Origin: Streptomyces sp. B21-083
GTDB taxonomy: Bacteria > Actinomycetota > Actinomycetes > Streptomycetales > Streptomycetaceae
Assembly: GCF_036898825.1 (NCBI RefSeq)
Contig: NZ_JARUND010000001.1
Coordinates: forward strand, 2,170,001 to 2,234,000
Length of the DNA: 64,000 nt
Reading direction: 5' to 3'
The position numbers and the translations under genes were made by a program. This document shows positions 40,720 to 63,467 of this stretch, one piece after another (position 1 is the stretch's first letter; each line of letters begins with the position of its first letter). The notes beneath the pieces are model-generated. The model searched no databases. It was not told the DNA's origin and saw nothing but the letters and a program-made list of their open reading frames with translations.

Positions 40720-40792
40720 TAGGTACCGCTTATAAGGGAGATCCGCTTTGCGTCTTGGACGCGGCACGGACCGCCTTGCTGCAATCGACGGC

Positions 40793-41854: not shown

Positions 41855-41953
41855 GCCGTCTCCCCCTCGGCGGCGGCAGGGACGAACTGGTCGAAGGCCG
41901 GGCACTGTTGACGTCGCGTGGACCTGGGTGGCGTGGTCCACCCGGGCGCGGTC

Positions 41954-43582: not shown

Positions 43583-43859
43583 AGGGGGTGCTTTCAGCCG
43601 AGGGGATCGGCTCACCCTCGCACCGGCCACTCAGCCTGACAAGGGGGTGCCGGCATTTTGTGCGGCCCGGCCGTCCGCAGTGACAGACCGTCTCAAGAAG
43701 GCCCCAAGGTGGAACACAGTGTGGGTTGACCTGCACGTTCCCCCAGGACGAAAGTGAACGCCATCCCCAACGGAACCCGAACCGGAAGGGTCCGCACGGT
43801 GTCCGCACCGTACTGGGGCTCCTCTGCCACCAGGCCACACCATCGAAAGGAGCGACCTC

Positions 43860-44996: not shown

Positions 44997-45115
44997 TCCC
45001 CGGCGATCTCGACGGCACCGCACCCCCCAACCCGACATCCCTGTCATGCGCATGCCCGAAAGGCCACGCAGCGGGCCGTCATCAGTTCCTTCCAGCAGAA
45101 GACAGGAGCACCCTC

Positions 45116-45796: not shown

Positions 45797-45899
45797 CTCG
45801 CGACGCACCTCGTCCCGCACGGACACCACCGAAGGACCCCCCACCCCTCACCTCAGCGATTTCCGCTCCCACGCATTCACCACCACCAGGAGGCGCCCG

Positions 45900-48153: not shown

Positions 48154-48156
48154 GCC

Positions 48157-49059
48157 GTGGCCGGCACCGCTCTCGCACCCGCCAAGGTGCGTGTGAAAAC
48201 GTCCGCGATGCCCGGGCACCGCTCCCGGATCGCCCTGGTCAACGCCGTCCCCGTCACGGTGTTCCTGCTGCTGCTGTTCGTGTACCCGATCATCGGGGTG
48301 CTCTCCCTCAGCCTCAAGGGTGACAGCGGCGGATTCACCCTGCACTGGTACGCCGACGCCCTCAGTGGCGTGAACCTCTCCGTGCTGCTGTCCACCCTGA
48401 GGATCTCCGCCGAGACCGCGGTCCTGAGCCTGCTGGTCGGTTTCGTCCTGGCCCACGCCATCGCCCGGATGCGGCCCGTCTTCGCCGCACTGGCCATGCT
48501 CATCGTGGTCGTACCGCACTTCATCAGCGCCCTGGTCCGCACCTACGGCTGGATCATCATGCTGGGTGAACACGGCCTCATCAACACCCTGGCCACCTCC
48601 CTGCACATCCCCGGCGCCCCCTACTCCCTGCTCTACAACGAGACCGGTGTCGTCATCGGCACCACCTCGGTGATGCTCCCCTACACCGTCCTGGTGCTGC
48701 AGGGCGTGATGCGGGGCGTCGACGGCCGGCTCCTGGCCGCGGCGGCAGGCTTCGGCGCGAGCCGGCTGACCATCTTCCGCAGGATCTACCTGCCACTGGT
48801 CGCGCCCGGGATCGGCACCGCGGGGCTCCTCAGCTTCATCCTCTGCCTGGGCTACTACATCACCCCCGCCCTGATGGGCGGCAACCAGCAGACCGTCGTC
48901 GCCGCGCTCATCGACCAGCAGGTGATGAAGCAGGACCAGTGGAACTCGGCCGCCGCCTTCGGCGTCATCCTGCTCCTGCTCACCTTCGCCGGCCTGGGCG
49001 TGCTCGGCCTGGCCAAGCTCCGCCGCAAGAAGGCTCACGCACGAAGGAGCAGCTCATGA
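48157..49059 (+). CDS. Polyamine-type ABC transporter permease (PotB-like)
   Basis: A 300-residue permease with about six helices, first at VPVTVFLLLLFVYPIIGVL. The EAA loop is LAAAAGFGASRLTIFRRIYL. GTG 48157 lies 3 bases after the ATPase stop. Its stop overlaps the next ATG. Confidence 0.92.
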   Translation: MAGTALAPAKVRVKTSAMPGHRSRIALVNAVPVTVFLLLLFVYPIIGVLSLSLKGDSGGFTLHWYADALSGVNLSVLLSTLRISAETAVLSLLVGFVLAHAIARMRPVFAALAMLIVVVPHFISALVRTYGWIIMLGEHGLINTLATSLHIPGAPYSLLYNETGVVIGTTSVMLPYTVLVLQGVMRGVDGRLLAAAAGFGASRLTIFRRIYLPLVAPGIGTAGLLSFILCLGYYITPALMGGNQQTVVAALIDQQVMKQDQWNSAAAFGVILLLLTFAGLGVLGLAKLRRKKAHARRSSS

Positions 49060-49898
49060 TGGAACTGCCTCCCACCCGGGCCGGACACATCGGCCGCGCC
49101 CTGAGCGCCATCGCGATCCTGCTGTTCCTGGCGATGCCCATCGTCATCATCCTGGTCACTTCCTTCGGTGCCGACGGCATCGGCACCTTCCCGCCCAAGG
49201 AGTACAGCACCCACTGGTACGAGCAGATGGCCGCGCCCGGCGGCAACTGGGCCACCTCCATCGCCCTGTCCAGCCTCATCGCCGCCCTCACCACCGTGTT
49301 CTCCCTCATCCTGGGAGCCACCGCCGCAACCGCCCTGGCCCGCGGCCGACTGCCCCTGCACACGGCGGTCTACGGGCTGGTCCTGGCTCCCCTGCTCATC
49401 CCGCAGGTGGTCATCGCGCTCGGCCTGTTCCTGTTCTTCGAACCGGCCGGCATGCTCGGCAGCCCGCTGGCCATCGCCCTCGGCCACACCGTGCTCGCCG
49501 CCCCCATCGCCATCCTCATCTTGATCTCCACGCTGAGGGGCATCGACGAGCGGCTGGAGGACGCGGCGGCCAGCATGGGCGCCAGCCGGATGGTCATCGC
49601 CCGGCGCATCACCTTCCCCCTGGCCACCCCCGGCCTGATCGCGGCAGCGGTGTTCTCCTTCATCACGAGCTTCGACGAGTTCTTCATCGCCCAGTTCATG
49701 TCGACACCCGACACCCGAACCCTGCCGGTCCTGGTCTTCAACGCCCTCCAGTTCGACGTCGACCCCACCGTCACCGCCGTCAGCGCCGTCCTCATCGCGC
49801 TCGCCATCCTGGCCCTCGCCCTGGTCGCCCTCGTCCGCAGACTCGGCGGCCACCGCAACCAGCAAGGTGGCCTCCTGCCGACGGAACCCCTCACCTGA
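49056..49898 (+). CDS. Polyamine-type ABC transporter permease (PotC-like)
   Basis: A 280-residue permease with about six helices; the EAA loop is LEDAAASMGASRMVIARRI and SFDEFFIAQFMS is the usual PotC C-terminal signature. ATG 49056 follows GAAGGAG and overlaps the previous stop (ATGA). It completes the importer. Confidence 0.92.
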   Translation: MMELPPTRAGHIGRALSAIAILLFLAMPIVIILVTSFGADGIGTFPPKEYSTHWYEQMAAPGGNWATSIALSSLIAALTTVFSLILGATAATALARGRLPLHTAVYGLVLAPLLIPQVVIALGLFLFFEPAGMLGSPLAIALGHTVLAAPIAILILISTLRGIDERLEDAAASMGASRMVIARRITFPLATPGLIAAAVFSFITSFDEFFIAQFMSTPDTRTLPVLVFNALQFDVDPTVTAVSAVLIALAILALALVALVRRLGGHRNQQGGLLPTEPLT

Positions 49899-49944
49899 GC
49901 CCGGCCGCGCCCCACTTCGAAACTTTCCGCAAAGGACCCCTGAG

Positions 49945-51225
49945 ATGAAGACGATTCCCTACTGGATCGAAACCGCTGGGGTGTTTCCCGACCGGTCCGG
50001 CAAGCCGCTGACCGAGGACACCGACCTGGTGGTCGTCGGCGCCGGCCTGACGGGCCTGTCCACCGCCCTCCACTCCGCCCGCAAGGGCGCCCGTGTCACC
50101 CTTGTCGAGAAGGGCCAGATCGGCTCCGGTGCCTCCGCGCGCAACGGAGGCATGGCCAACCTGGGCTTCACCATCGGCGTACGCCAGGCCATCCGCCGCT
50201 ACGGTCTCGAACGGGCGCGCGAGATCTACAACTCCTACGGCGAGGCCGTGGACACCGTCGAGCGGCTGGTGAACGAGGAGTCCATCGACTGCCAGTTCCG
50301 CCGCGTCGGACGCCTGGGACTCGCCTCCCGCCCCGCCCACTTCGAGAGCAAGAAGAGCCAACAGCGCGACCTGGCCAAGTACTTCGGACACGAGACCACG
50401 CTGATCAGCAAGTCCGAACTGCGTTCCGAGATCGGCTCCGACGCCTACCACGGCGGCCTGCTCGACCCGTTCAGCGCCGCACTGCACGTCGGCCGCTTCG
50501 TGCTCGGCATGGCCGAGGCGTGCGAGCGCGCCGGTGTCGAGATCCACGAGCGCAACGCGGCCATCGACGTGCGGCGTACCGCCGCCGGCCGGTTCGAGGT
50601 CAGCACCGAGCGCGGTGTGATCCGCGCCGGGCAGGTCATGATGGCCACCGACTCCTACACCGACAAGAACTTCCCGTGGCTGCGCCGCCGGCAGGTCAGC
50701 GTGGGCAGCTTCATCATCGTGACCGAGCCGCTCGGTGAGGAGCTCGCCCAGGAGATCATCCCCAAGGGCCGCCTCCTCGTCGACTCCAACCAGGTCTGCC
50801 ACTACTTCCGGCTCACCCCGGACAACCGGCTGCTGTTCGGCGGCCGGGCCCGTTTCGCCCCGTCCGACCCCACCTCGGACAAGAAGAGCGGGGCCGTTCT
50901 GTTCCGTGAGATGTGCGAGATCTTCCCCCAACTCGCCCGGACGAAGGTCGAGTACGTGTGGGGCGGCTCCGTCGGTTTCGCGATGGACCGCATCGTGCAC
51001 GCCGGGCAGACCGAGGACGGCGTCCACTACTCCATGGGGTACGCCGGCCACGGCGTGCAGATGGCCACGCACATGGGGCACGTCATGGCCGAGGTGCTGG
51101 ACGGCCACCCCGAGGTCAGCCCCGTCCGCGACCTGGCCCCGCCCCGCATCCCCCTCTACAACGGCACCGCCTGGTTCCTGCCCTTCGCGGGCGCCTACTA
51201 CAAGACGCTGGACCGCATCCGCTGA
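49945..51225 (+). CDS. FAD-dependent amine oxidoreductase (PuuB/DadA-like)
   Basis: A 426-residue DAO-family flavoenzyme. The dinucleotide motif LVVVGAGLTGLSTALHSA is at about residues 29-46, followed by GSGASARNGGMANLGF, the form seen in gamma-glutamylputrescine oxidases. The C-terminal GYAGHGVQMATHMG closes the FAD site. It would oxidise the imported amine to an aldehyde for the next enzyme. AAAGGA precedes ATG 49945. Substrate is inferred. Confidence 0.88.
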   Translation: MKTIPYWIETAGVFPDRSGKPLTEDTDLVVVGAGLTGLSTALHSARKGARVTLVEKGQIGSGASARNGGMANLGFTIGVRQAIRRYGLERAREIYNSYGEAVDTVERLVNEESIDCQFRRVGRLGLASRPAHFESKKSQQRDLAKYFGHETTLISKSELRSEIGSDAYHGGLLDPFSAALHVGRFVLGMAEACERAGVEIHERNAAIDVRRTAAGRFEVSTERGVIRAGQVMMATDSYTDKNFPWLRRRQVSVGSFIIVTEPLGEELAQEIIPKGRLLVDSNQVCHYFRLTPDNRLLFGGRARFAPSDPTSDKKSGAVLFREMCEIFPQLARTKVEYVWGGSVGFAMDRIVHAGQTEDGVHYSMGYAGHGVQMATHMGHVMAEVLDGHPEVSPVRDLAPPRIPLYNGTAWFLPFAGAYYKTLDRIR

Positions 51226-51267
51226 CCGGTCGGCAGCCCCCGACACACGTCCAAGGAGATACCCACG

Positions 51268-52719
51268 ATGACTGTCGTCCGTGATGTTCCCAAGCAGCTG
51301 TTCATCGGCGGAACCTGGCAGGACGCCGAGTCCGGCCGAACCCTTTCCGTCGACGACCCGGCCACCGGCGAGGAACTGTGCCAGGTCGCCGACGCCTCAC
51401 CCGCCGACGGCCGACGTGCCGTCGAGGCCGCGGTCGCCGCGCAGGCCGCCTGGGCCGCCACCGCGCCCCGGGTACGCAGCGAGATCCTTCGCCGCGCCTA
51501 CGACATCATCATCGCGCGCACCGAGGACCTCGCGCTGCTGATGACCCTGGAGATGGGCAAGCCCCTGGCCGAGGCGCGTGCCGAGGTCGCCTATGCCGCG
51601 GAGTTCTTCCGCTGGTTCTCCGAGGAAGCCGTCCGTATCGACGGCGGCATGATGACCGCGCCCGACGGCAGGAACCGCCTGCTGGTCACCCGTCAGCCCG
51701 TCGGCCCCTGCCTGCTCATCACCCCCTGGAACTTCCCCCTGGCCATGGGCACCCGCAAGATCGGCCCCGCCCTCGCCGCCGGCTGCACCATCGTTCTCAA
51801 ACCCGCCCCCCAGACCCCCCTGGCCAGCCTCGCCCTCGCCGGCATCCTCAAAGAGGCCGGACTGCCCGACGGCGTCCTCAACATCGTCACCACCACCGAC
51901 GCCGCCGCCGTCGTCGAACCCCTCCTCCGCGGTGGGAAGATCCGCAAGCTCTCCTTCACCGGCTCCACCCAGGTCGGCAGGATCCTGCTGGCCCAGTGCG
52001 CCGACACGGTCATCCGCGCCTCCATGGAACTCGGCGGCAACGCCCCCCTCGTCGTCTTCGACGACGCCGACCTCGACGTGGCCGTCGAAGGCACCATGGT
52101 CGCCAAGATGCGCAACATGGGCGAGTCCTGCTGCGCCGCCAACCGCATCTACGTCCACACCTCCGTCGCCGACGAGTTCGCCCAACGCCTCACCGCCCGC
52201 ATGGCCGCCCTGAAGGTCGGCCCCGGCACCGAACCCGGCACCGACGTCGGACCCCTCATCGACGCCGCCGGCCGCAGCAAGGCCCACGACCTCGTGCGGG
52301 ACGCCGTCAAGCGCGGCGCCAAGGTCCTCACCGGCGGTGAACTCCCCGAGGGCCCCGGCTGCTTCTACCCGCCCACCGTCCTGACCGGCATCGCGCCCGA
52401 CTCCGCGATCATCGACACGGAGATCTTCGGCCCGGTCGCCGCGATCCGTACCTTCGACACCGAGGACGAGGCCGTCGCCGCCGCCAACGACACCGAATTC
52501 GGCCTGGCCGCCTACCTGTTCACCCAGAACCTCGACCGCGCCCTGCGCGTCGCCGAACGCCTCGAAAGCGGCATGATCGGCCTCAACACCGGACTGGTCT
52601 CCAACCCGGCCGCCCCCTTCGGCGGCGTCAAGCAGTCCGGCCTGGGCCGCGAAGGCGGACGCGTCGGCATCGACGAGTTCCTCGAGTACAAGTACATCGC
52701 CGTCCCCGTTGGGGCCTGA
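51268..52719 (+). CDS. Aldehyde dehydrogenase, succinate-semialdehyde (GabD) type
   Basis: A 483-residue NAD(P)-dependent aldehyde dehydrogenase. It has TPWNFPLAMGTRKIGPALAA, FTGSTQVGRILL, the Glu in MELGGNAPLVVF and catalytic Cys in NMGESCCAANRIYV, with the KQSGLGREGG tail. These follow GabD (succinate or glutarate semialdehyde). It oxidises the aldehyde made by the PuuB-like enzyme. AAGGAG precedes ATG 51268. A decayed homologue lies at 54476-54833. Confidence 0.92.
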   Translation: MTVVRDVPKQLFIGGTWQDAESGRTLSVDDPATGEELCQVADASPADGRRAVEAAVAAQAAWAATAPRVRSEILRRAYDIIIARTEDLALLMTLEMGKPLAEARAEVAYAAEFFRWFSEEAVRIDGGMMTAPDGRNRLLVTRQPVGPCLLITPWNFPLAMGTRKIGPALAAGCTIVLKPAPQTPLASLALAGILKEAGLPDGVLNIVTTTDAAAVVEPLLRGGKIRKLSFTGSTQVGRILLAQCADTVIRASMELGGNAPLVVFDDADLDVAVEGTMVAKMRNMGESCCAANRIYVHTSVADEFAQRLTARMAALKVGPGTEPGTDVGPLIDAAGRSKAHDLVRDAVKRGAKVLTGGELPEGPGCFYPPTVLTGIAPDSAIIDTEIFGPVAAIRTFDTEDEAVAAANDTEFGLAAYLFTQNLDRALRVAERLESGMIGLNTGLVSNPAAPFGGVKQSGLGREGGRVGIDEFLEYKYIAVPVGA

Positions 52720-52720
52720 C

Positions 52721-53704
52721 ATGCCCGACCGACTCGTGGTCCTCTACCGGGGCAACCGGCCACCGGCCACCAGCCTCATCGAACGCCTCATGAACACCGT
52801 CTACGCCACGGAGGAGGAACTGCCCTACCTCCTCCCCGGCGCCGACGCCCTCCTGGCCTGGGTGACCACCACCCCGGCCATCCGCGAGGCCTGGCCCGAC
52901 GACCCGCAGAAGGCACCACGCTGGGTGCACGCGTCTTCCGCGGGCGTGGACTCCTTCCTGTTCCCCGCCCTGGTGGACGATCCGGGCGTCGTCCTGACCA
53001 ACGCCCGAGGTGTCTACGACCAGCCGACCGCCGAGTACGTCCTGGGCCTGATCCTCGCCCTGGCCAAGGACTTCCCCGGCACCTGGGAGCACCAGCGGCG
53101 CCGGGAGTGGCGTCCGCGCCCGAGTGACGGCATCACCGGCCGCACCGTGCTGGTCTGGGGGACGGGGCCGATCGGCCGGGCCATCGCCCGGCTGCTGCGC
53201 GCCGTCGGGATGCGCGTGTGCGGCGCGGGCCGCAAGGCCCGCGCGGACGACCCCGACTTCGGCACGGTCCACGGTGCGGCGACCCTGCGTTCCGCCCTGG
53301 CGGAAGCGGACTACGTCGTCCTGGCCGCACCCCTCACCCAGGACACCCGGGGCATGGTCGACGCCCCCGTGCTCGCCGCCATGAAGCCGGGGGCGCGGCT
53401 GATCAACGTAGGCCGGGGCGGACTCGTCGACGAGGAGGCGCTGGTCGACCACCTCGCCGCCGGCCGGCTCGCCGGCGCGGCCCTGGACGTGTTCGCCCAG
53501 GAACCGCTGCCTGCTGAATCGGCCCTGTGGGACATGCCCGGCGTGATGATCTCCCCGCACACGGCGGGCGAGACCACCAGCGAGCGGGAGGCACTCGTCG
53601 AGGTGTTCCTCGACAACCTCACCCGCCGCATCGAGGGCCGGCCGCTGCGCAACGTGGTGGACAAACGGCGCGGATACGTGATCGACGAGACGCGCCCCGC
53701 CTGA
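52721..53704 (+). CDS. D-2-hydroxyacid dehydrogenase (GhrA-like)
   Basis: A 327-residue NAD(P)-dependent reductase of 2-oxoacids. The Rossmann motif is VLVWGTGPIGRAIARLL; catalytic residues lie in NVGRGGLVDEEAL (Arg), DVFAQEPLP (Glu) and SPHTAGET (His). ATG 52721 follows the aldehyde dehydrogenase stop by one base, so translation is coupled. It is the last gene of the + operon, ending at a very long terminator. Confidence 0.9.
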   Translation: MPDRLVVLYRGNRPPATSLIERLMNTVYATEEELPYLLPGADALLAWVTTTPAIREAWPDDPQKAPRWVHASSAGVDSFLFPALVDDPGVVLTNARGVYDQPTAEYVLGLILALAKDFPGTWEHQRRREWRPRPSDGITGRTVLVWGTGPIGRAIARLLRAVGMRVCGAGRKARADDPDFGTVHGAATLRSALAEADYVVLAAPLTQDTRGMVDAPVLAAMKPGARLINVGRGGLVDEEALVDHLAAGRLAGAALDVFAQEPLPAESALWDMPGVMISPHTAGETTSEREALVEVFLDNLTRRIEGRPLRNVVDKRRGYVIDETRPA

Positions 53705-53766
53705 AGGCGAGTAGCGCGCGCCCCGGCCGGTAACTCCTACCGGCCGGGGCGCGCGCTACTCGCCTT
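53704..53766. terminator. 29-bp bidirectional terminator
   Basis: A perfect 29-bp inverted repeat (arms AAGGCGAGTAGCGCGCGCCC... and its complement) with a 5-base loop lies between the convergent 2-hydroxyacid dehydrogenase and cupin genes. AAGG/CCTT at the stem base gives a short U tract in each direction. Confidence 0.92.
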
Positions 53767-53787
53767 TCGTGCCCTGCGGCCTCGGCG

Positions 53788-54141
53788 TCACGACACGGTC
53801 AGGTAGATCTTGCGCACGGTTTCGATGGTCTTCCAGACACCGACGAAACCCGGCTTCATGACAAAGCTGTCGCCTGCCTTGTAGACCACCGGCTCGCCAC
53901 CTTCCGGCGTGATTTCGATGACGCCGGAAAGGATGTGGCAGAACTCGAAGAGCTCGCCCTTGATCGAGCGCGTCTCGCCGGGCGTGGCTTCCCAGACGCC
54001 CGTTTTGATGGTTTCCCCGCGGGCGGCGTCCTGGGCCCAGGTCCTGTAAGTCGGGTCGCCGGAAATCAGGCGTTCCGGCAGCGGACCGGACTCGCGGGGT
54101 GCGAAGGAGGGATCGGTGTCGATGGTCTTCAGGAGTGACAT
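53788..54141 (-). CDS. Cupin-fold protein (DUF861 type)
   Basis: A 117-residue single cupin. The first motif is degenerate (FEFCHILSGVIEITPEGG) and the second reads YKAGDSFVMKPGFVGVW, as in DUF861/EutQ-like proteins that stabilise or transform amine or ureido compounds. ATG 54141 follows GTGGAGGA. A 40-base element shared with the gabT promoter lies 120 bases upstream. Such cupins are common beside amine catabolic genes; its reaction is unknown. Confidence 0.8.
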   Translation of the reverse strand: MSLLKTIDTDPSFAPRESGPLPERLISGDPTYRTWAQDAARGETIKTGVWEATPGETRSIKGELFEFCHILSGVIEITPEGGEPVVYKAGDSFVMKPGFVGVWKTIETVRKIYLTVS

Positions 54142-54260
54142 GCTTTTCCTCCACTGGTTCGGGGAACGACGCCACGGTCTCGGCACACAGGTGGGGCGTG
54201 GATCGTTCGACTGCTGCGGTCCATCGAGCATCTTCGACGCCCCGCGCGGAGCCCATGTGT

Positions 54261-54300
54261 GATCTGTCCGTTGAGGGCACGATGTTCGGACGTTGTGTCA
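54261..54300. promoter_or_regulatory. Bipartite 40-base element upstream of the cupin gene
   Basis: GATCTGTCCG, 16 bases, then CGGACGTTGTGTCA. The same two blocks with the same spacing occur at 59063-59102 upstream of gabT. TGTCCG/CGGAC(G/A) form an inverted repeat. I infer a PucR-family operator. Confidence 0.6.
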
Positions 54301-54302
54301 AG

Positions 54303-54475
54303 CAGGCGGTTGGGACGCAGGACCTCGTCCGCGGGCACGCGTCCGCCCGTCTTCTCCTCGACCCACTCCGGCAGCGACGAGCTGCGGTAGCCGAAGGTGG
54401 CGTCGCGGGCGAACTCGCTCTCGCCGACCGGGAGCAGCCCGTCGGCCGTCCGCATCCAGTGGCGGGAGCCGACAG
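54303..54475 (-). pseudogene. Relic of a four-carbon acid sugar kinase (DUF1537)
   Basis: Minus-strand codons read DGLLPVGESEFARDATFGYR followed by SSSLPEWVEEKTGGRVPADE, a signature segment in the N-terminal domain of DUF1537/OtnK-like kinases. Only about 55 codons remain; nucleotide-binding parts are missing, and the frame runs into the cupin promoter. It starts directly at the point where the aldehyde dehydrogenase relic ends. Confidence 0.6.
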
Positions 54476-54833
54476 TCAGCCGACCCGCTCCTTCTCGGAC
54501 AACCAGCGGAAGAACTCCGCCGCGTACGCCGCCTCTCCCCCGGCCTCAGTCGGCGGCTTACCCGTCCCGGACGTCATCAGAGGGGCGAGCTCGTCGGTGC
54601 GCCCGACGATGATCTCGTAGGCGGGGCAGGATCTCGCTGCGCACGCGGGGTGCCGTACGGGCCACCTGCGACTGCCCGGCCGCGTCCTCCGCGAGCCGGG
54701 CGTCCTTGTGGCTGGCGTCGGCCACGTGACGCAGGACGTCGCCGGGCGCGGGGGCGTCGACGGGCATGGTGACGCCGTCCGCGGCGTCCGGTCAGGCGCC
54801 GCCGACGGACAGTCGCGTGGGTGTGGCGATCAC
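54476..54833 (-). pseudogene. Relic of a GabD-type aldehyde dehydrogenase
   Basis: GTG 54833, with AGGAGA upstream and a GTGA overlap with the preceding gene, opens TRLSVGGA and then a TGA stop, continuing in frame as PDAADGVTMPVDAPAPGDVL ... TAPRVRSEILPR. A frameshift leads to AYEIIVGRTDELAPLMT and AAYAAEFFRWLSEKE, then stop. These match residues 1-about 125 of the intact enzyme at 51268 (TAPRVRSEILRRAYDIIIAR; YAAEFFRWFSEE). The other three quarters are gone. It was once the third gene of the gabT operon. Confidence 0.82.
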
Positions 54834-57724
54834 GAGGTCTCTCCTGATCGGTCGGCGCCGGGGTCGAGCAGTTCGGCCAGGTGCAGGGCGCGGATGCCCT
54901 GGTCACCTGCGAGGTGGTCGACCTGTGTGGCGCAGCTGAAGCCGTCCGCCACGACGACTACGGGTGTCTCGTGGTCGATGCCGTCGAGGCGTGGCTTCAG
55001 GGCCAGTCCAGCGACGGCCATCGAGGTGTCGTAGTGCTGTTCCTCGAAGCCGAAGTTGCCGGCGAGTCCGCAGCAGCCCTCGGCCTCGTCGACCTTCGTC
55101 ACGCCGAGGCGGCTGAGCAGGTCGCGTGGGTGGCGGCCCTTGAAGGTGGCGTACTCGTGGCAGTGGGTCTGCAGGACGACGTGTTCCGGCAGTTCGGGAG
55201 GCGTCCAGCCGGGCGCGGCGAGGTTGCTCAGGGCACCGGTCAGGGTGTGGACGCGAGCCGCGACACGCTGGGCGGCGTCGGTGCCGAGCAGTTCGGGCAC
55301 GTCACGCTTAAGGGCGGCGGCGCAGCTGGGTTCGGCCACGATGATGGGCCGGTCGTCGCCGTCCAGCCGGGCGACGGTACGGGCCATCACGCGGCGGGCG
55401 ATGGACAGCTGGCCGGTGCTGACCCAGGTCAGGCCGCAGCACAGGCCGTCCTGGGGCGTGCAGGGGAGGCCGGCGTCGGCGAGTACCCGGCTCGCCGCTC
55501 CCGCCACCTCGGGGCGGAAGGCGCGGGTGAAACTGTCGACGAAGAGCAGGGCCTTCGCCGGTTCAGCGGTCCGCGCCGAACGCAGGGCCCGGCGCAGCGC
55601 GCGCCGGGAGGCGAAGGCCGGGATCCGGCGCTTCGTGGTCACCCCTCCGAGGCGGGCGAGCAGCTTGCCGACCGGTCCGCGCAGCAGCGCGTTGACCGGG
55701 CGGGCGGCGTATCCGGCGAGTGCGGAGGTCAGGGGCAGCCAGCCGAGGGAGTAGTGGGAGCGGGGCCGGAGCCTGCCCTTGTAGTGGTGGTGCAGGAACT
55801 CCGCCTTGTACGTGGCCATGTCCACGCCGACCGGGCAGTCGCTGGAACAGGCCTTGCAGGACAGGCACAGGTCGAGGGCGTCGCGCACCTCCGTCGAGCG
55901 CCAGCCGTCCTCCACCAGCTCGCCCCGCACCATCTCCTGGAGCAGGCGGGACCGGCCCCGCGTGGAGTCGTTCTCCTCGCCCGTGGCCCGGTAGCTGGGA
56001 CACATCACGCCACCCGCGTCGCTGCGGCAGCGGCCGACGCCGACGCAGCGGCGTATCGCGCCCGCGAAGCCGTCCTCGTCGTGCGGGAAGGAGAAGAGGG
56101 TCTCGACGGGCAGCAGCACGTCGGCCGGCGTGTGCAGTGCCAGATCGGCGTCGAGCCGGGCCGGTGCCACGATGATGCCCGGGTTGAGCAGTCCCTCGGG
56201 GTCGAAGATCTCCTTGAAGGCGGCGAACGCGCGGATCAGCCCGTGGCTGTACATGACCTCCAGCAGCTCGCTGCGGGCCCGCCCGTCGCCGTGCTCACCC
56301 GACAGGGTGCCGCCGTGGCCGACGACCAGGGCGGCCGCCTCGCTCAGGAAGCGGCGGGCGGACCCACGTCCGTCGGCGGTGGCGAAGTCGAAGTCGATAC
56401 GCACATGGACGCAGCCCGCGCCGAAGTGCCCGTAGAGCACGCCGGTCAGGCCGTGGTCGACCAGCAGCTTGCGGAAGTCGCGCAGGTAGGCGGCCAGGTT
56501 CTCGGGCGCGACGGCCGCGTCCTCCCAGCCGGGCCATGACTCCCCGCCGTCCACCAGGCGGGCGGAGAGCCCGGCACCGTCCTCACGGACCCGCCACAGC
56601 GCACGCCGTTCGGCCGCGCTCCGCACGACGCGCCCGCCGGTCGTGCGACCCCGGGTCCTGAGCACGTCCAGCAGTTCGACGGCGCGGGCGTCGACCGCGT
56701 CCTGGTCGTCGCCGTCGAGTTCGACGTACAGCCAGGCCCGCCCGTCGGGCAGTCCGGTCACGGAGTCGGGACCGCGCCGGGCGCGCATGGTGGCGACGAT
56801 CGCCTCGTCCATACCCTCCACGGCGGTGGGATTCCAGCGCAGGATCTCCGGCACGTCCTCGGCCGCGTCGACCACGTCGTCGTAGCCGAGCGCGAGCAGG
56901 GCGGAGGCCTGTGCGGTCGCCGCCAGGCGGACCGTCGCCGCGGTGACGACCGCGCAGGAGCCCTCGGTGCCCACCAGGGCACGCGCCATGTCGAAGCCGT
57001 GCTCGGGCAGCAGGTGGTGCAGTTGGTAGCCGGAGACCTGGCGCGGAAGACGGCCCTGCTCGGTGCGGATCGGCGCCAGGTTGGCGTCGATCAGCCGGCG
57101 CACATCCGCTTCGAGGCGGGCGACACGCTGTACGGCGTCCGTGTCGTTCGGGTCGGCCGCGCGCAGGCCGGTGCGGTCGGCGACGGCCCGCACGCCGTCG
57201 GCCGTCACGATCTCCAGCGCCTCGATGTGAGAGCTGGTACGCCCGTGCCGCACCGACCGGTTGCCGCACGCGTCGTTGCCGATCATGCCGCCGAGGGTGC
57301 AGCGGCTGTGCGAGGAGGGGTCGGGGCCGAAGGTGAGCCCGTGCGGGGCGGTCGCGCCGCACAGCGCGTCGAGGATCACTCCTGCCTCGACGCGGGCGGT
57401 GCGCGTGACCGGATCGATGTCCAGGATCCGGTTCATGTACCGGGAGAAGTCCAGGACGACGCCCGGACCGACCGCGTTGCCGGACAGACTGGTGCCGCCG
57501 CCGCGCGCGGTGACCGGAACGCCCGTCTCGCGACAGGCGCGCAGCACCGCGACCACGTCGTCGGCGTCACGGGGGAACACCACGGCCCGCGGCGGGACGC
57601 GGTAGTTGGAGGCGTCGTAGGCGTAGAGGCCGGTGGAGCCCGGTCCGGTCTCCACCCGCAGGCCGGGAGCGATCTCGGTGAGCCGCGCGACCAGCGGCTC
57701 CAGGGCCGTGGTGGTGTCCGTCAT
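54830..57724 (-). CDS. FAD-binding and Fe-S oxidoreductase fusion (GlcD-GlpC type)
   Basis: A 964-residue 2-hydroxyacid dehydrogenase-like protein. The PCMH FAD domain (about 40-215) has PVTARGGGTSLSGNAVGPGV and a GlcD-type C-terminal domain follows to about 540. Two 4Fe-4S clusters follow (CVGVGRCRSDAGGVMCPS, CLSCKACSSDCPVG), then two CCG domains (CCGLTWVSTG; CCGLAGNFGFE). It probably oxidises a D-2-hydroxyacid and passes electrons to the quinone pool. ATG 57724 overlaps the gabT stop, and its own stop overlaps the relic start, so the three were one coupled operon. Confidence 0.88.
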   Translation of the reverse strand: MTDTTTALEPLVARLTEIAPGLRVETGPGSTGLYAYDASNYRVPPRAVVFPRDADDVVAVLRACRETGVPVTARGGGTSLSGNAVGPGVVLDFSRYMNRILDIDPVTRTARVEAGVILDALCGATAPHGLTFGPDPSSHSRCTLGGMIGNDACGNRSVRHGRTSSHIEALEIVTADGVRAVADRTGLRAADPNDTDAVQRVARLEADVRRLIDANLAPIRTEQGRLPRQVSGYQLHHLLPEHGFDMARALVGTEGSCAVVTAATVRLAATAQASALLALGYDDVVDAAEDVPEILRWNPTAVEGMDEAIVATMRARRGPDSVTGLPDGRAWLYVELDGDDQDAVDARAVELLDVLRTRGRTTGGRVVRSAAERRALWRVREDGAGLSARLVDGGESWPGWEDAAVAPENLAAYLRDFRKLLVDHGLTGVLYGHFGAGCVHVRIDFDFATADGRGSARRFLSEAAALVVGHGGTLSGEHGDGRARSELLEVMYSHGLIRAFAAFKEIFDPEGLLNPGIIVAPARLDADLALHTPADVLLPVETLFSFPHDEDGFAGAIRRCVGVGRCRSDAGGVMCPSYRATGEENDSTRGRSRLLQEMVRGELVEDGWRSTEVRDALDLCLSCKACSSDCPVGVDMATYKAEFLHHHYKGRLRPRSHYSLGWLPLTSALAGYAARPVNALLRGPVGKLLARLGGVTTKRRIPAFASRRALRRALRSARTAEPAKALLFVDSFTRAFRPEVAGAASRVLADAGLPCTPQDGLCCGLTWVSTGQLSIARRVMARTVARLDGDDRPIIVAEPSCAAALKRDVPELLGTDAAQRVAARVHTLTGALSNLAAPGWTPPELPEHVVLQTHCHEYATFKGRHPRDLLSRLGVTKVDEAEGCCGLAGNFGFEEQHYDTSMAVAGLALKPRLDGIDHETPVVVVADGFSCATQVDHLAGDQGIRALHLAELLDPGADRSGETS

Positions 57725-58989
57725 CGCCCTGCCGCTCCCGATGTTCCGGCCTCGACCGCGGTCGCCCACGCCCGGAGGCCCTCGTCCACGGCCGTCTCGT
57801 CGATGACGAGCGCCGGAATCATCCGTACGACCTGGTTCCAGGCTCCGCACAGCAGCAGAAGCAGGCCCTCGTCGATGGCGGCGCGCTGCACACGGGCGGC
57901 GGTCTCGGCGTCGGGGCCGCCGTCCTCGGTGACGAACTCGGTGGCCAGCATCAGCCCGAGGCCCCGCACGTCGCCGATGCCCGGCGTCCGGTCGGCCACC
58001 GCCTCCAGCCCGTGGCGCAGCCGCTTGCCCATCGCCTCGGCGTTCTCGACGAGATTCTCGTCCCGTACGACGTCGAGCGTGGCGCAGGCCGCGGCGCAGG
58101 CGACGGCGTTGGCGCCGTACGTGCCGCCCTGCGAGCCGGGCCAGGCCTTGGCCATCAGCTCCTCGGAGGCGGCGATGCCGGACAGCGGGAAACCGCTGGC
58201 CAGCCCCTTGGCGGTGACGAGGATGTCCGGGGTGACACCGAAGTGGTCGTGGCCCCAGAAGCGTCCGGTGCGGCCGACGCCCGTCTGCACCTCGTCGAGA
58301 ATCAGCAGGAATCCATGGCGGTCGGCGCGCTCCCGCAGCCCCTCCATGAACGCCCGGGTGGCGGGCACATACCCGCCCTCGCCGAGGACCGGCTCAACGA
58401 TGATCGCTGCCGTGTCGGCGGGCGAGGAGATCGTCTGGAGCGTGTAGTCGAGTTCCTTCAGGGCGAAGCGGGTGGCGGTCTCCTCGTCCCAGCCGTAGCG
58501 GTAGGCGGACGGGAAGGGGGTGACGACCACCCCGCTCATCAGCGGCGAGAAACCGGAGCGGAAGCGGGTGCCCGAGGTGGTCATGGCGGCGGCGGCGACC
58601 GTACGGCCGTGGAAGCCGCCGTGACACACGATGACGTTCGGCCGGCCGGTGGCCTGGCGGGCCAGGCGCAACGCGGACTCGACGGCCTCGCTGCCGGAGT
58701 TGGTGAAGAACAGACTGTCCAGGCCGGCCGGCAGCACCTCGCCCAGCTTGTCGACGAGGCGGCGCAGGGGCTGGTGCATGACCGTCGTGTACTGGCCGTG
58801 GATCAGCGTGCCCACCTGCTCCCGCGCCGCCGCCACGACCTTGGGGTGACAGTGCCCGGTGCTCGTGACGCCGATGCCGGCGGTGAAGTCGAGATAGCGG
58901 CGGCCGTCCTGGTCGAAGAGGTGGACGCCCTCGCCCCGGGCCGCCACCACGGGCGTGGCCTGGCGAAGGTGCGGCGACAGTGCGGTCAT
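57721..58989 (-). CDS. Class III aminotransferase, 4-aminobutyrate (GabT) type
   Basis: A 422-residue PLP enzyme moving the amino group of GABA or another omega-amino acid to 2-oxoglutarate. It has FTNSGSEAVESALRLAR, CHGGFHGRT, LLILDEVQTGVGRTGRFWG and the PLP lysine in ILVTAKGLASGFPLSG. ATG 58989 follows GGGAGA. It leads an operon with the FAD/Fe-S fusion. The semialdehyde product would have gone to the relic dehydrogenase and now presumably to the intact copy in the + operon. Confidence 0.9.
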   Translation of the reverse strand: MTALSPHLRQATPVVAARGEGVHLFDQDGRRYLDFTAGIGVTSTGHCHPKVVAAAREQVGTLIHGQYTTVMHQPLRRLVDKLGEVLPAGLDSLFFTNSGSEAVESALRLARQATGRPNVIVCHGGFHGRTVAAAAMTTSGTRFRSGFSPLMSGVVVTPFPSAYRYGWDEETATRFALKELDYTLQTISSPADTAAIIVEPVLGEGGYVPATRAFMEGLRERADRHGFLLILDEVQTGVGRTGRFWGHDHFGVTPDILVTAKGLASGFPLSGIAASEELMAKAWPGSQGGTYGANAVACAAACATLDVVRDENLVENAEAMGKRLRHGLEAVADRTPGIGDVRGLGLMLATEFVTEDGGPDAETAARVQRAAIDEGLLLLLCGAWNQVVRMIPALVIDETAVDEGLRAWATAVEAGTSGAAGR

Positions 58990-59062
58990 GTTCGTCTCCC
59001 GGCCTGGTGGGTCTGCTGTGGTGTCCCGAGCATCTGTGCGGACCAGGGGTGCGCCAACCCTC

Positions 59063-59102
59063 GATCTGTCCGGCGGGGCCGCGACATCCGGACGTTGTGT
59101 CA
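59063..59102. promoter_or_regulatory. Bipartite 40-base element upstream of gabT
   Basis: GATCTGTCCG-N16-CGGACGTTGTGTCA, with sequence and spacing identical to 54261-54300 in the two blocks. It lies in the spacer between gabT and the divergent PucR gene, where a PucR site would be expected. Confidence 0.65.
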
Positions 59103-59233
59103 GCCTCTTCGGGGTCATGCCGGGTGCCGATCGTTCACGGACGGCTCTTGCGCAGGTCAGCGACGCTTGTCACAGTGGCCGAGCACTCCCGCGCGCGGCG
59201 CCGGGCCCGAGCAGGGAAGCCCCTGGAGACACC

Positions 59234-60859
59234 GTGAACGACAACCACCCGGCCGGCCACGGGCCCACCCGCGCGGTCACCCTCGCCGACGTTCTGGCCC
59301 TCCCCGTCCTGGCCGCCGGACTGCCCCAGGTCGTCACCGGCGCATCCCACCTGGACCGGCCGGTCGGCTGGGTCCACATCACCGAACTGACCGACCCCGC
59401 GTCCTTCCTCAAGGGCGGCGAACTCGTCCTGACCACCGGAATGCCGTTCCCGGAGGACGCGCCCGGCGTGCGCCGGTACGTCGACGAACTCGCCGACGTC
59501 GGGGCCGCGGCGCTGGTCATCGAGCTCGTACGCCGCTATCACCGCCCGCCGGACGCACTCGTCGACGCCTGCCGCCTGCGTGGCCTTCCCCTCGTCACGC
59601 TCGCCAAGGACGTCAACTTTCTTGAGGTCACCCAGGTCGTGCACGCGCTACTGCTCGGCAACCAGGCGGACGCGATGCGCCGTACCCAGCGCATCCACGA
59701 GGCGTTCACCGCCCTGACCCTGCGCGGTGCCGGCCCGGAGGACGTGGTGCGTGCGGCGGCGGAGATGTGCGGCCGCACGGTCGTCCTGGAGAACCTGACG
59801 CACCAGGCACTGATCTGCGAACCGTCCGGCGGCACGGTGGCGGAGGCGCTCACCGGTTGGGAACGGTGTTCCAGAGCCACCGGGGCCGCCGACCCCACGG
59901 CGACGTGCGGCCCGGCGGGCTGGCTCACCGCACCCGTCGAGTACCAGGGCGAGCGCTGGGGCCGTGTGATCATGCTTCCGGCCCGCCCCGACGGTCCCGC
60001 CTTCGGGCCGGAGGACTTCACCGTGCTGGAGAGGACCGCGATGGCGCTGACCGTCGCCCGACTCGTCCATTCCACCCCGTGGGAACGCACGGCACACCGA
60101 AACGCCCTTCGCGACCTGGTCGACCAGCGCCACCACTCCGCCGAGGACGCCCGCGCCCGCTGCGCGGCACTGGGCCTGCCGACCGACCGAAGCCGGTTCG
60201 TCGCGGCCCTGGTGGCTTTCCGGTCCGGCGGAGGGGGAACCGAACCCGAGGCTCGCCTGTTCCAGGAGTTGCGGACGGCAGGTGTCGCGGCCCTGGTCGG
60301 CGAGTTGGCCCCCGACCGGCTCGGCATCCTGCTGGCGCTGCGTCCCTCCCAGCCCTGGCACCCCATCATCGAAGGCCTGTGCGGCACCGTGCTGAGTTCG
60401 GCCCCGCAGGCGGTGGTGAGCGTCGGCTCGGAGATCACGGACCTCTCCGACACCGCCCGCTCGTTCCGCGAGGCGGCCCGCGTCGCCGAGGCCACGCCGC
60501 CCGGCCAGCCCCTCCCCCCGGACCGTTCCTTCCACGAGCTGTCCGACATCGACCTGCCCCGCCTGCTGTACGCCCTCCGCGAGGACACCCGGATCCAGGA
60601 GTACACCGAACAGCGACTCGGGCGACTCATCGATCACGACGCCCAGCACGGCACGGACCTGCTGGCGACCCTGCGCCACTACCTCGAAGCGGCCGGCAAC
60701 AAGACCACCGCCGCCCGCCGGGGCGCCCTCTCGCGCGAAACCATGTACCAACGCCTGCGGACCATCGAACGGGTCCTCGACCGCGATCTGGAGTCCGGCG
60801 CACAGCGCACCGAACTGCACGTGGCCCTCACCGCGCTCGATGCGCTTCGAGCCCACTGA
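59234..60859 (+). CDS. PucR-family transcriptional regulator
   Basis: A 541-residue PucR regulator with sensory domain VTLADVLALPVLAAGLPQVV ... VHITELTDPASFLKGGELVL and C-terminal HTH region YLEAAGNKTTAARRGALSRE / MYQRLRTIERVLD. It closely parallels the PucR at 41954, so the two arose by duplication. Divergent from gabT, it is the likely activator of that operon. GTG 59234 follows CTGGAG. Confidence 0.9.
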   Translation: MNDNHPAGHGPTRAVTLADVLALPVLAAGLPQVVTGASHLDRPVGWVHITELTDPASFLKGGELVLTTGMPFPEDAPGVRRYVDELADVGAAALVIELVRRYHRPPDALVDACRLRGLPLVTLAKDVNFLEVTQVVHALLLGNQADAMRRTQRIHEAFTALTLRGAGPEDVVRAAAEMCGRTVVLENLTHQALICEPSGGTVAEALTGWERCSRATGAADPTATCGPAGWLTAPVEYQGERWGRVIMLPARPDGPAFGPEDFTVLERTAMALTVARLVHSTPWERTAHRNALRDLVDQRHHSAEDARARCAALGLPTDRSRFVAALVAFRSGGGGTEPEARLFQELRTAGVAALVGELAPDRLGILLALRPSQPWHPIIEGLCGTVLSSAPQAVVSVGSEITDLSDTARSFREAARVAEATPPGQPLPPDRSFHELSDIDLPRLLYALREDTRIQEYTEQRLGRLIDHDAQHGTDLLATLRHYLEAAGNKTTAARRGALSRETMYQRLRTIERVLDRDLESGAQRTELHVALTALDALRAH

Positions 60860-60998
60860 CGCGGAAAAGAGCTGCGGCCTCGGCCGGTGCTGCTCGGCAG
60901 CCGACCAGCAACCAGACATCGGAGGTCAGCCGACCGGTATGTCGTCGATCCTGAATTCAGGCATCCCTAGGATGTTCAGACGGAAATTCGCGTGATAC

Positions 60999-61340
60999 TC
61001 AAGCGGTGCCCCAGGTGGGGTCGGTTCGGGGTGGCGGCGAGGGTGTAGTCCCGTGTGCCGCCGTGCCGGACGAAGGACGCCGGGAGCCAGGGGCGGTCGC
61101 TCGTCAGGCCGTTGACCGCGAGGGAGTGGACGTACGGGGTGTCCGCCGCCGCCCCCTGTGCGTGGATCGAGATGTCGTTGCCCTAGGGGCGGTTGATCTC
61201 CATCCTCGGGAACAGGGATGAGACCAGGACCAGTTCGGCTCGGGACGGCACCTGCGGGTACATGCCGAGCGCGGCCAAGACGTACGCCAGCGGTGCCACG
61301 GAAGGCCCGACGTCCCGGAGGGGACGCGCGCGGGTCGTCC
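60999..61340 (-). pseudogene. Relic of a secreted GH92 alpha-mannosidase
   Basis: Minus-strand codons read LAYVLAALGMYPQVPSRAEL, VLVSSLFPRMEINRP, an in-frame TAG, GNDISIHAQGAAADTPYVHS, LAVNGLTSDRPWLPASFVRH and GGTRDYTLAATPN. A one-base slip then gives PTWGTA and a stop at 60999. This is the C-terminus of a GH92 enzyme (compare AWYLFSALGFYPLVMG in the intact gene). Upstream, a leader with a GGAG site and the palindrome at 61428 remain, so the middle of the gene has been deleted. Otherwise 60860-61585 holds only the palindrome and a terminator. Confidence 0.82.
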
Positions 61341-61427
61341 CGGCGGGGTACCGCCTCCACTCCTGTGGGGAGCAACCGGTTTGACGATGCTGCTTGTTGG
61401 AGCGATAGAGTGATGACCAGACCGCCG

Positions 61428-61439
61428 GACAACGTTGTC
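61428..61439. promoter_or_regulatory. GACAACGTTGTC palindrome upstream of the GH92 relic
   Basis: It is identical over all 12 bases to the palindrome upstream of the intact GH92 gene (34604). It was probably the operator of the now dead gene. Confidence 0.6.
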
Positions 61440-61501
61440 TCAGATGGTCGCCTCCCCAGACGTACTCCACCCGGGCCTCATCCCCCGTGCCGGCCCGGCT
61501 C

Positions 61502-61534
61502 GCGGACCCGGTGGGTATCGACCACCGGGTCCGC
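61502..61534. terminator. Terminator of the LPMO gene
   Basis: GCGGACCCGGTGG and CCACCGGGTCCGC form a 13-bp perfect stem with a 7-base loop, about 50 bases beyond the LPMO stop on the minus strand. Confidence 0.8.
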
Positions 61535-61585
61535 CCTGAGCTGCCTCACCTGTGCGTGTGTGGCCCCGCATGTCCGGGTCAGGTG

Positions 61586-62701
61586 CTAACCGACCCGGCA
61601 GGGCAGAGTAGTCGCCGTATCACCGCCCGCGCCCCGGACGACGTATCCGAACGTCGCTGTCTTGCCCGGATCGAGCGAGCCGTTCCAGTTGGCGTTGTGG
61701 ACCATCACCGCCTGGCCGTTGTAGGTGGCGTCGCCGTTCCAGAGGCTGTCCACCGCCTGGCCCGCCGGAAGCGACCAGTCGACCATCCAGCCGAGCATGG
61801 GCACGGTCCCGGAGTTGGTGACGGTCACCTCTGACTGGTAGCCGCCGTTCCAGCTGCCCGTCGTGGTGCGGGTGGCGGTGCACGCGCCGGGCGGGGGCTC
61901 GGTGGGCGGGTTGCCGGGGTCCTTGATGCCCGTCACCTCTCCGTTGCCGCCGTCGAAGACGACGTCGGAGCAGGAGTAGAAGGTCTCCGCACTGTCGGAA
62001 CGCTGCCACACCATGTAGATGAGGTGGCGCCCGGACTTGTTCGCCGGAAGCTTGCCGTTCCAGGAGTAGTTGGCCTCGACGTTGCCCGGGGTGCCGTTGA
62101 GCGGCGGGTGGTCGACGCTCAGGAACGGCTGGGACTCCAGCGCGTCCCAGGTGAGGGTCTTGGTCGGGTCGAAGCCGTCCTTGGTGATGTAGACGTAGAA
62201 CCAACCCGGGTGCGCCGCCCACGCGTTGTACGCGAAGTCGACGTTGGCGCCCGAGGTGAGATGGGTCAACGGCCAGTCGGCGCTGGGGGTGTTGAACCCG
62301 GTGAAGTTGGGGTTGCCACCGCTGCAGAGCTGACCGTCCGGGACGAAGCCCCGGGTGCGGCCAGCGCCGTCCGAGCGCAGCACCGAGAACCAGTTGTAGA
62401 ACGGCGTTGTCCCGCTGACCTGTTGGGCCGTCTTGCAGGCCGGGTTGATCGCCTTGATCTCACCGGTGTCCGTGAGGGCGTCCTCCCAGCACAGGAAGGT
62501 GCGGCTGCCGGGTTTCATCGGGGTGCCGTGGGCCTCCGCGTCACCGCCCGCCGTGACGACCAGACCGAGGGCCGGAATCGCGGTGAGCAGGGCCAGGAGG
62601 ACGAGGAGAAGGGCCCTGCCTCGGGTGGGGAGTGGTAATCGGCGTGGGGTGCGGGGGGAAGGTGAGGAGGGTGGGGAGGTCGAGGTGCGTGTCAGGTCCA
62701 T
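61586..62701 (-). CDS. Secreted AA10 lytic polysaccharide monooxygenase with CBM2
   Basis: A 371-residue copper enzyme that oxidatively cleaves crystalline cellulose or chitin. A long signal peptide (hydrophobic ALLLVLLALLTAIPALGLVV) is cut at AEA|HG, so mature His (residue 58) is the first copper ligand. The second is His in WAAHPGWFYVYITKDG. The catalytic domain runs to about 255 (ETFYSCSDVVFDGG), then a Pro/Glu linker and a CBM2 (GACTATRTTTGSWNGGYQSE to the final Cys). CBM2 and CebR control favour cellulose. ATG 62701 follows AAGGAG. Two CebR-type boxes lie upstream. Confidence 0.93.
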   Translation of the reverse strand: MDLTRTSTSPPSSPSPRTPRRLPLPTRGRALLLVLLALLTAIPALGLVVTAGGDAEAHGTPMKPGSRTFLCWEDALTDTGEIKAINPACKTAQQVSGTTPFYNWFSVLRSDGAGRTRGFVPDGQLCSGGNPNFTGFNTPSADWPLTHLTSGANVDFAYNAWAAHPGWFYVYITKDGFDPTKTLTWDALESQPFLSVDHPPLNGTPGNVEANYSWNGKLPANKSGRHLIYMVWQRSDSAETFYSCSDVVFDGGNGEVTGIKDPGNPPTEPPPGACTATRTTTGSWNGGYQSEVTVTNSGTVPMLGWMVDWSLPAGQAVDSLWNGDATYNGQAVMVHNANWNGSLDPGKTATFGYVVRGAGGDTATTLPCRVG

Positions 62702-62839
62702 GTCATGATCTCCTTCAGTCGTACGCGGTGCGCCGTACGTCGTGCGGTACGTACGGAACGTGCGGGTGAAGGGGCGCGCCCGACTGGGGGCGCGCGTGCT
62801 GCGCGATGCGCACGGTGTGATGCGTGGGGGGTGGTGAGG

Positions 62840-62853
62840 TGGGAGCGGTTCCC
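62840..62853. promoter_or_regulatory. CebR-like box, proximal, upstream of LPMO
   Basis: TGGGAGCGGTTCCC, the same GGTT-centred variant as at 4424, lies about 140 bases before the LPMO start. Confidence 0.55.
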
Positions 62854-62855
62854 GC

Positions 62856-63467
62856 TTACGGGTTCCGGTCCGCTCGGTATGGGAGCGCTCCCACCTCACT
62901 CTCCAACGAAGCTAGCGCCGCGGGGTGAAGTTGTAAACGCCTGACGCACAAGGGCCGCACACAGATGACTGGAGTTCCCGGGGTACGGTCGCGCTCACCG
63001 CCGAACAGCCGCGCGGAGATCGGGTCGGCGCGTGGTCTGCGGGACCGGGCTCGCGGTGGGCGGCCGGTGGGCGGCTCGATCGTGAACTCGGTGTGCCCCG
63101 GGGCGATATCCACGTCGATGCGGCCCCGGTGCGGGGCTATGACGGCCGACACGATGGCGAGGCCGAGGCCCGACCCCCCGTCCTGGGAACCACTGCGGGC
63201 GCGGGAGGCGTCGGCCCGGGTGAAGCGTTCGAAGACGGACGGGAACAGGTGCGGCGGGATGCCTGGGCCGTCGTCGCGTACGCGGATGACGCACCGGTAG
63301 TCCACGACCTCGACGCAGGCCGCCGCCGTCGTGCCACTGGGCGGGTGAACCCGTGCGTCGGCCAGCAGGTTGGCCACCATCCGGCGCGGCCGGGCCTCGT
63401 CACCGGCGGCCAGCACCGGGGGGGGCACACGGACGTTGTCGCCGCGAACCCCAGAAGTGCCAGACAT
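62856..63467 (-). pseudogene. Sensor histidine kinase ATPase-domain relic
   Basis: The frame from ATG 63467 encodes only the HATPase domain (about 63063-63467): N-box [13 protein letters not shown]1 RDDGPGIP, F-box VFERFTRADASR and G2 GGSGLGLAIVSAV. The membrane sensor, HAMP and HisKA phosphorylation domain are absent. After FTIEPPTG, where kinases usually end, about 68 unrelated codons run through the LPMO promoter. No response regulator is adjacent. A truncated remnant is most likely; a stand-alone anti-sigma-like ATPase is less so. Confidence 0.65.
62880..62893. promoter_or_regulatory. CebR-type operator upstream of LPMO
   Basis: A perfect TGGGAGCGCTCCCA, identical to the site before the GH12 gene at 3751, so both enzymes probably answer to the same cellobiose signal. 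Confidence 0.85.

Follow-up and report, generated by a model that had tools for sequence, protein, structure and literature searches.

A LacI-type operator beside a dead GH92 gene in Streptomyces may control a small RNA on the opposite strand

LacI-family sugar-hydrolase regulons are, as a kind, marked by a palindrome with a central CG, which stands upstream of the hydrolase genes and of the regulator itself. The 6C RNA of actinobacteria has two C-rich loops. This small RNA is said, in the accessible part of its source, to pair with mRNA targets at the C-rich loops (Mai et al. 2019, via PMC7308464). According to the available portion of PMC4365011, scr5239 of Streptomyces coelicolor is a 159-nt RNA with five stem-loops and a methionine response, and the agarase dagA is one of its targets.

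The locus that we describe, in a window of 64,000 nucleotides (the whole stretch of DNA analysed) from Streptomyces sp. B21-083, resembles each of these systems in part. Its palindrome GACAACGTTGTC has the central CG and stands upstream of GH92 and of a LacI-type gene. The small RNA predicted here has, like 6C RNA, a C-rich loop in a high-GC actinobacterium (PMC7308464, in the part available), but it has one such loop, lies behind a LacI-type operator and has no Rfam match. Like scr5239 (PMC4365011, same portion), this Streptomyces RNA would be transcribed from a promoter of its own and its expression would be linked to a metabolite, both being predictions in our case; it differs from scr5239 in length, fold and signal, and that portion of PMC4365011 uses neither of the terms LacI and C-rich. 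The remnant gene and the longer genes of relatives match glycoside hydrolase family 92 (PF07971/PF17678), whereas the gene in the window has lost its start, core and C-terminus. Titles and the beginnings of abstracts, with subscription journals mostly outside the search, gave no description of this RNA or operator; works naming the 12-mer concerned, by title, Streptococcus and E. coli, and none naming GH92, Streptomyces and LacI together concerned this regulon by title. We consider it probable that control of a small RNA on the plus strand is what has preserved the operator, a pseudogene and a separate intact transcription unit lying side by side (Table 1).

Table 1. Coordinates of the features discussed (positions in the window)
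Feature	Position	Strand	Description and basis
Operator copy at GH92-A	34604..34615		24 bases before GH92-A start
GH92-A	34640..38461	+	intact paralogue, 1,273 aa; GH92N, GH92 and F5/8 type C domains
Stranded GH92-B 3' end	38609..38821	-	codons ~1023-1093 (last ~73), one stop inside; adjoins GH92-A; tblastn
Inserted catabolic island, 22.2 kb	38823..61001		interrupts GH92-B; flanks collinear with G091
GH92-B remnant	61002..61285	-	codons ~701-793 of the 1,095-codon G091 gene; 91% DNA identity to G091
4-base insertion (net +1 frame)	somewhere within 61020..61029	-	alignment with sister and G091
In-frame TAG stop	61183..61185	-	translation; Tyr at that codon in relatives compared
2.16-kb deletion junction	61279..61285	-	G091 matches 3590 and 5756 meet; sister contig 10763 and 12926
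-35 element TTGACG	61381..61386	+	GAC begins decayed second operator O2
-10 element TAGAGT	61406..61411	+	
Predicted small RNA, ~118 nt	61419..61536	+	promoter spacing and hairpins
Operator O1	61428..61439		perfect 12-base palindrome GACAACGTTGTC; few bases downstream of predicted RNA start (61418-61420)
Hairpin 1	61471..61498	+	CCCCC in loop
Hairpin 2	61502..61534	+	GC-rich, terminator-like, without T run
LPMO gene	61586..62899	-	named by reading of translation, ORF as listed; orthologue beside GH92-B in relatives

In the window GH92-B, which is of the alpha-mannosidase type, is a dead gene and no enzyme is made from it. The initial annotation had recognized a GH92 C-terminus with an in-frame TAG on the minus strand and proposed a protein search; that search holds up, since the minus strand of 61002-61285 matches positions 381-462 (of 464) of PF07971 with an E value of 4e-13 and one TAG inside. 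Searched separately, the two stop-free pieces meet the same domain at E values of 2e-4 and 7e-4, both under the Pfam curated cut-off. The remnant thus contains only part of the catalytic domain, broken by the TAG; the open reading frame of the sister strain, Streptomyces sp. NRRL WC-3618, spans positions 1-463.

The lost sequence can be located by comparison. A DNA search with 60860-61590 against 295 genomes of the genus, our own included, gave matches in 140, and the best besides our own genome, G091, gives two separate matches: their ends share 7 bases in the window, and in G091 they are about 2.17 kb apart. There GH92-B is intact, with 1,095 codons from a signal-peptide start, tail-to-tail with GH92-A and adjacent to the LPMO gene. 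The catalytic core, rightly reported as missing, went with the 2.16-kb deletion, which ends on one side in the leader and also took the ribosome site, start codon and signal peptide. Leader and ribosome site had both been thought to remain. Part of the leader does, but the deletion covers both the ATG and the ribosome site, which reads GGAGGAGGGG in the sister and in G091. The supposed one-base slip proves to be an insertion of 4 bases (net +1) when compared with G091, GQFP and the sister. No close relative was found to share the short form and lack a longer gene: GH92-B is intact at the same place in G091, SID12488 and GQFP, and NRRL WC-3618 has a 902-codon frame. The other end of the gene, at 38609-38821 beside GH92-A, had been overlooked. 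We reject the idea that the remnant arose from GH92-A by recent duplication: at the DNA level the two share only short matches (28 of 36 bases in the C-terminus and 18 around the operator), and both genes are present in relatives.

The GH92-B pseudogene is a case of ordinary decay, and its history is clear. The window is collinear with relatives up to 38822 on the GH92-A side, and collinearity is back at 61002. By reading of translations, the island in between encodes a trpC-like protein (at its left end), a LysR regulator, a tartrate dehydrogenase-like protein, two PucR proteins, an ABC importer, oxidases, an ALDH and an aminotransferase. NRRL WC-3618 (L113), identified as sister by a FastTree tree of GH92-A, has the same island directly after GH92-A. 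Its GH92-B runs from the ATG to codon ~822, includes both GH92 domains, and may still work despite its truncation. Since the sister has the island yet keeps these ~822 codons, the insertion came first. None of the three further lesions of the window (2.16-kb deletion, TAG, 4-base insertion) occurs in the sister, G091 or GQFP. The island inserted near codon 822 in the common ancestor of the two strains, and in the window lineage GH92-B was afterwards gutted by the deletion and the small lesions. About 687 bp of GH92-B (G091 numbering) are absent between the two sides of the island in the window, and, judging by the sister, the loss of codons ~823-1022 goes back to the insertion itself.

The island is composite, with parts at different places in three other genomes. 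The stretch 39788-60861 is collinear with G252 apart from small gaps. In G097, with which the island is only partly collinear, no more than a few kb separate the trpC-like gene of the left end from the remaining island genes. G264 (L111, strain SID12488) has an intact GH92-B on one contig; a second contig carries the cluster's right end with ~89-90% identity. No long repeat joins the island ends, the longest shared word being 9 bases. The sister shares the island and lacks the stranded GH92-B tail beside GH92-A (L113 13838, L199). The ~130 bases between PucR and the remnant (60868-60998) align with the sister and G091 only in short stretches, and two pieces of them weakly resemble a stretch of S. 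lacrimifluminis (L200:2462-2663).

The perfect operator does remain upstream of the remnant, as had been reported, at 61428-61439. Exact copies of GACAACGTTGTC number three in the strain's 10.5-Mb genome (one for the reversed control pattern; ~0.2 expected from base composition): at GH92-A, at 61428-61439, and between genes that Pfam identifies as a ROK-family kinase and a LacI-family regulator. This LacI-type gene occupies G000:C2 643076-644059, and the operator copy there is at C2:642875. Twelve relatives, the best of the 140 matching genomes, contain 47 exact operators versus 3 for the reversed control. The arrangement typical of LacI-family operators, a site upstream of the LacI-family gene that is shared with sugar genes, recurs in 11 of the 12 as well as in our genome, with one operator each between the LacI-type gene and the ROK kinase gene and others before GH92 genes. 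We examined 28 operator places (27 in relatives, one our own) with reference proteins; the LacI/ROK pair stands at 12, GH92 genes at nine, and only a 47% identical LacI-type gene at one (L099), with none of the reference proteins at six (L084, L089, L093, L096, L101 with two sites, and L103).

By this placement the operator marks a GH92 regulon, and its binder is probably an autoregulated LacI-type repressor, the simplest reading of these places. A second putative binder, the ROK-family regulator of the neighbouring ABC operon (29396-30646), is disfavoured, because the operator lies between the LacI and ROK kinase genes in 11 of 12 relatives. By translation, a ROK-family regulator gene and a sugar ABC importer (29396-34191) are divergent from GH92-A in the window.

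Directly upstream of O1 the plus strand reads TTGACG-19-TAGAGT, facing away from GH92-B and PucR and toward the 3' end of the LPMO gene. The elements TTGAC and TAGAGT follow the consensus of Streptomyces housekeeping promoters. Several facts count against the RNA unit: a spacer of 19 nt is long, TAGAGT is exact in only 12 of 20 GH92-B loci, hairpin 2 lacks a T run, a generic promoter scan found no promoter, and a terminator scan of 60700-61700 found no terminator. The latter result, together with the orientation of the remnant, agrees with the proposal of the initial annotation that transcription starts on the minus strand at the operator and passes through the remnant, antisense to the 3' end of PucR. 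We find this proposal barely credible. By eye we see no conserved minus-strand promoter next to the operator, the GH92-B leader has lost its end along with the ribosome site, and PucR is there only through the island, which among five loci compared (L112, L113, L116, L117 and L118) the window shares with the sister L113 alone. Nor do the data support an operator simply detached from its gene, as had been supposed: the conserved promoter-like sequence around it reads the other way, with two hairpins within ~120 nt.

How far does this block depend on GH92-B? Among 80 named Streptomyces loci with GH92-A, GH92-B is intact nearby in 18, partial in two and undetectable in 60, absence being judged within the stretch examined, which in some cases ends early (for example L139 and L160). 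When the operator is masked, a profile of the block, run on these loci, the window and G091, matches (E<1e-3) 31 of the 80, namely 18/18 with intact GH92-B and 13/62 others, as well as the window and G091. The block thus tracks GH92-B closely, and therefore O1 and O2 may also serve GH92-B, and the losses that kept the block may be recent. About 217 nt separate the G091 operator from the GH92-B start (5909 versus 5692 in L024), so that it is upstream of the gene but not directly in front. Pieces of GH92-B or its leader accompany the block in the window, S. graminilatus (L112), S. lacrimifluminis (L116), L174 and L133 (by eye). Loss of GH92-B with the block kept is therefore recurrent; other block loci without GH92-B may never have had the gene. 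L176 has GH92-B codons 8-809 beside GH92-A and neither operator block nor RNA unit, so the enzyme gene can exist without the block.

These data could also describe a plain pseudogene, whose operator is GH92-B's own repressor site, unmutated so far, with promoter-like and hairpin sequences that are either incidental or belong to control of GH92-B and termination of neighbours. The block is upstream of GH92-B in all 18 loci with the intact gene, and 49 of the 62 loci without one show no block. Moreover, given the ~10% divergence from G091, the chance that a 12-mer free of constraint is still perfect is about 0.28, so the window alone proves no constraint. We nevertheless regard this explanation as rather unlikely.

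The alignment of the block covers 20 loci with GH92-B (G091 and the truncated sister counted) and 14 without intact GH92-B (window included), and has the layout TTGAC-20 nt-TAGAGT on the plus strand, a start region AGACC, and then O1. In the 14 loci, agreement with the consensus is 0.99 for the -35 element, 0.98 for the -10 element, 0.94 for AGACC and 0.98 for O1; the corresponding values with GH92-B are 0.98, 0.91, 0.84 and 0.96. Neighbouring columns have decayed. Flank agreement is 0.43-0.57 without GH92-B and 0.51-0.68 with it, and the promoter spacer falls from 0.80 to 0.69. Persistence of the -35, -10 and O1 in loci without GH92-B while flanks decay speaks against a plain pseudogene, and we therefore read the operator as owned by the RNA unit. 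O1 is exact in 13 of the 14 loci (degenerate in L142) versus 15 of the 20, so keeping O1 is not special to loci without GH92-B. A scan of the genus for TTGAC-N20-TAGAGT-gap-GACAACGTTGTC, independent of GH92, found 56 of 392 genomes, with one site each and none for the reversed control.

The second operator, O2, which overlaps the -35 element, behaves differently. Its agreement drops from 0.91 with GH92-B to 0.70 without. This decay is at odds with a decoy or accessory operator, a site without a transcript of its own that either titrates the LacI-type repressor or forms a loop with the operator of GH92-A. Such a role would suit the identical 12-mer at GH92-A and the second, one-mismatch operator ~45 bp away in many GH92-B loci, but would have no need for conserved promoter hexamers, a start region, a C-rich loop or RNA hairpins. 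We judge it very unlikely.

As the product behind the promoter we favour an RNA. By eye, no conserved plus-strand open reading frame is seen in the unit, and a protein gene behind the promoter is rejected, the right-hand neighbours varying and lying on either strand (LPMO, aconitase-like, SpoIIE-like or HSP70-like genes by translation). The C-rich loop and hairpins persist regardless of that neighbour, a further point against a plain pseudogene. We extracted 61 units: 34 from the block alignment and 27 of the 30 pattern loci fetched (out of 56; three duplicates removed). Hairpin 2 is recognized by sequence pattern in 51, of which 50 were aligned, leaving out L144 with its insert. The loop of hairpin 1 has at least five consecutive C in 50/50 aligned sequences; in the 5' part of the RNA such a run occurs in 8/51, and 38 have two or three C. 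L144 (17460-17624) has ~45 extra bases between promoter and O1, and keeps O1 and hairpin 2. L216 (1574-1676) has, behind the same promoter and operator, a hairpin 2 of different sequence (stem GGGTCCGGTGGG / CCCACCGGACCC) and similar shape, with a C-rich stretch before it.

The arms of hairpin 1 pair better than chance: over 33 distinct arm pairs, 231 of 297 cells pair, a number that none of 5,000 shuffles reached (mean 213, highest 230). The signal comes from two of the nine pair positions, 5 and 7, seen as GC, AU and CG (UA also at 5). Single folds favour another structure there in 4 of 50 sequences (L115, L126, L212 and L218). RNAalifold on the MAFFT alignment returned hairpin 2 only, hairpin 1 having come from single folds and anchored arms. 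For the given structure on the plain sequence alignment, three of five covariation measures exceed all shuffles: paired cells (93.2% versus 88.4 shuffled) and double-change cells (42 versus 13.8) lie above all 500 shuffles and the slid versions, and the covariation score is 0.118 versus 0.046 (0/500 as high; slid versions at most 0.032). The other two, which the tool describes as least misled by relatedness, stay at shuffle level: pairs with a change on both sides (6 versus 4.3; 66/500) and further pair types (15 versus 14.4; 225/500). These two results fit a plain pseudogene. Structural support for the predicted RNA is, on these alignments, good but not decisive.

We also followed the hairpins with a covariance model, R2. 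It matches the window, a training sequence, at 61450-61537 with 78 bits, the only match in the genome at E<0.01. At this threshold it matches 26 of the 80 GH92-A loci, in each case directly behind the promoter block and nowhere else; 25 of the 26 are training sequences. Among the 30 pattern loci it matches 28, including four of the five that are neither training sequences nor duplicates. In 61 genomes of the family it matches 4/10 within the genus and 0/51 in 16 other genera. Of the 14 loci that lack an intact GH92-B, 13 have the hairpins (in L173 the sequence is masked by N), and R2 matches 14 of the 18 with an intact gene. The remaining four (L135, L137, L156 and L182) have an exact O1 without hairpins, and L135 and L137 also keep exact promoter hexamers. 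Loci with the LPMO gene and no block gave one weak match (L118, E 0.38) and none listed for L154, L176 and L188. Conversely, 11 of the 26 R2-positive loci have no LPMO gene in the stretch examined (L160 stops at a contig end), and the hairpins are therefore not simply an LPMO terminator. Rfam gave no match of any family in seven loci at E<=1 and no credible match overall, nor a 6C match in window positions 60800-61800 at E<=10. If the RNA unit is real, it represents a new family within a known kind, the bacterial small RNAs.

The mechanism that we propose for a small RNA under O1 is as follows. An intact unit would read away from the dead gene, with a sigma-70-type promoter, O1 just past the start, and an RNA consisting of a hairpin with a C-rich loop followed by the terminator-like hairpin 2 as its end. 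The LacI-type repressor, encoded elsewhere beside the ROK sugar kinase and with the same operator in its own upstream region, would hold the unit off at O1. A GH92 sugar signal would release repression, so that the RNA is made together with GH92-A. By analogy with 6C RNA, the C-rich loop may be its acting part, perhaps by pairing with G-rich ribosome sites. Possibly GH92-B and the RNA are both under O1 and O2, and only the RNA half stays useful after loss of the enzyme gene.

GH92-A leaders did not stand out as targets. Against nine of them (from 26 loci; the other 17, window included, lack a match to the ribosome-site pattern) a median of 18% of 687 pooled leaders paired with the loop as strongly, as did 20% of shuffled loops. 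In a first version of this comparison the mean rank fraction within the locus was 0.31 for GH92-A leaders (13 loci, some starts misplaced) and 0.62 for binding-protein leaders (14 loci).

On balance we lean, by a little, towards a new Streptomyces sRNA family: ~120 nt long with a C-rich loop, controlled by a LacI-type repressor, divergent from GH92, co-regulated with alpha-mannosidases, and outlasting the enzyme gene. If this is true, sugar-hydrolase regulons of Streptomyces have a post-transcriptional arm, switched by the same LacI-type repressor, and the 'orphan operator' marks a living RNA gene. Loci that have the RNA unit and no GH92-B are then natural deletion experiments in named strains. 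The case also yields a rule of thumb: where a dead gene adjoins an intact operator, the latter may indicate a non-coding gene on the opposite strand.
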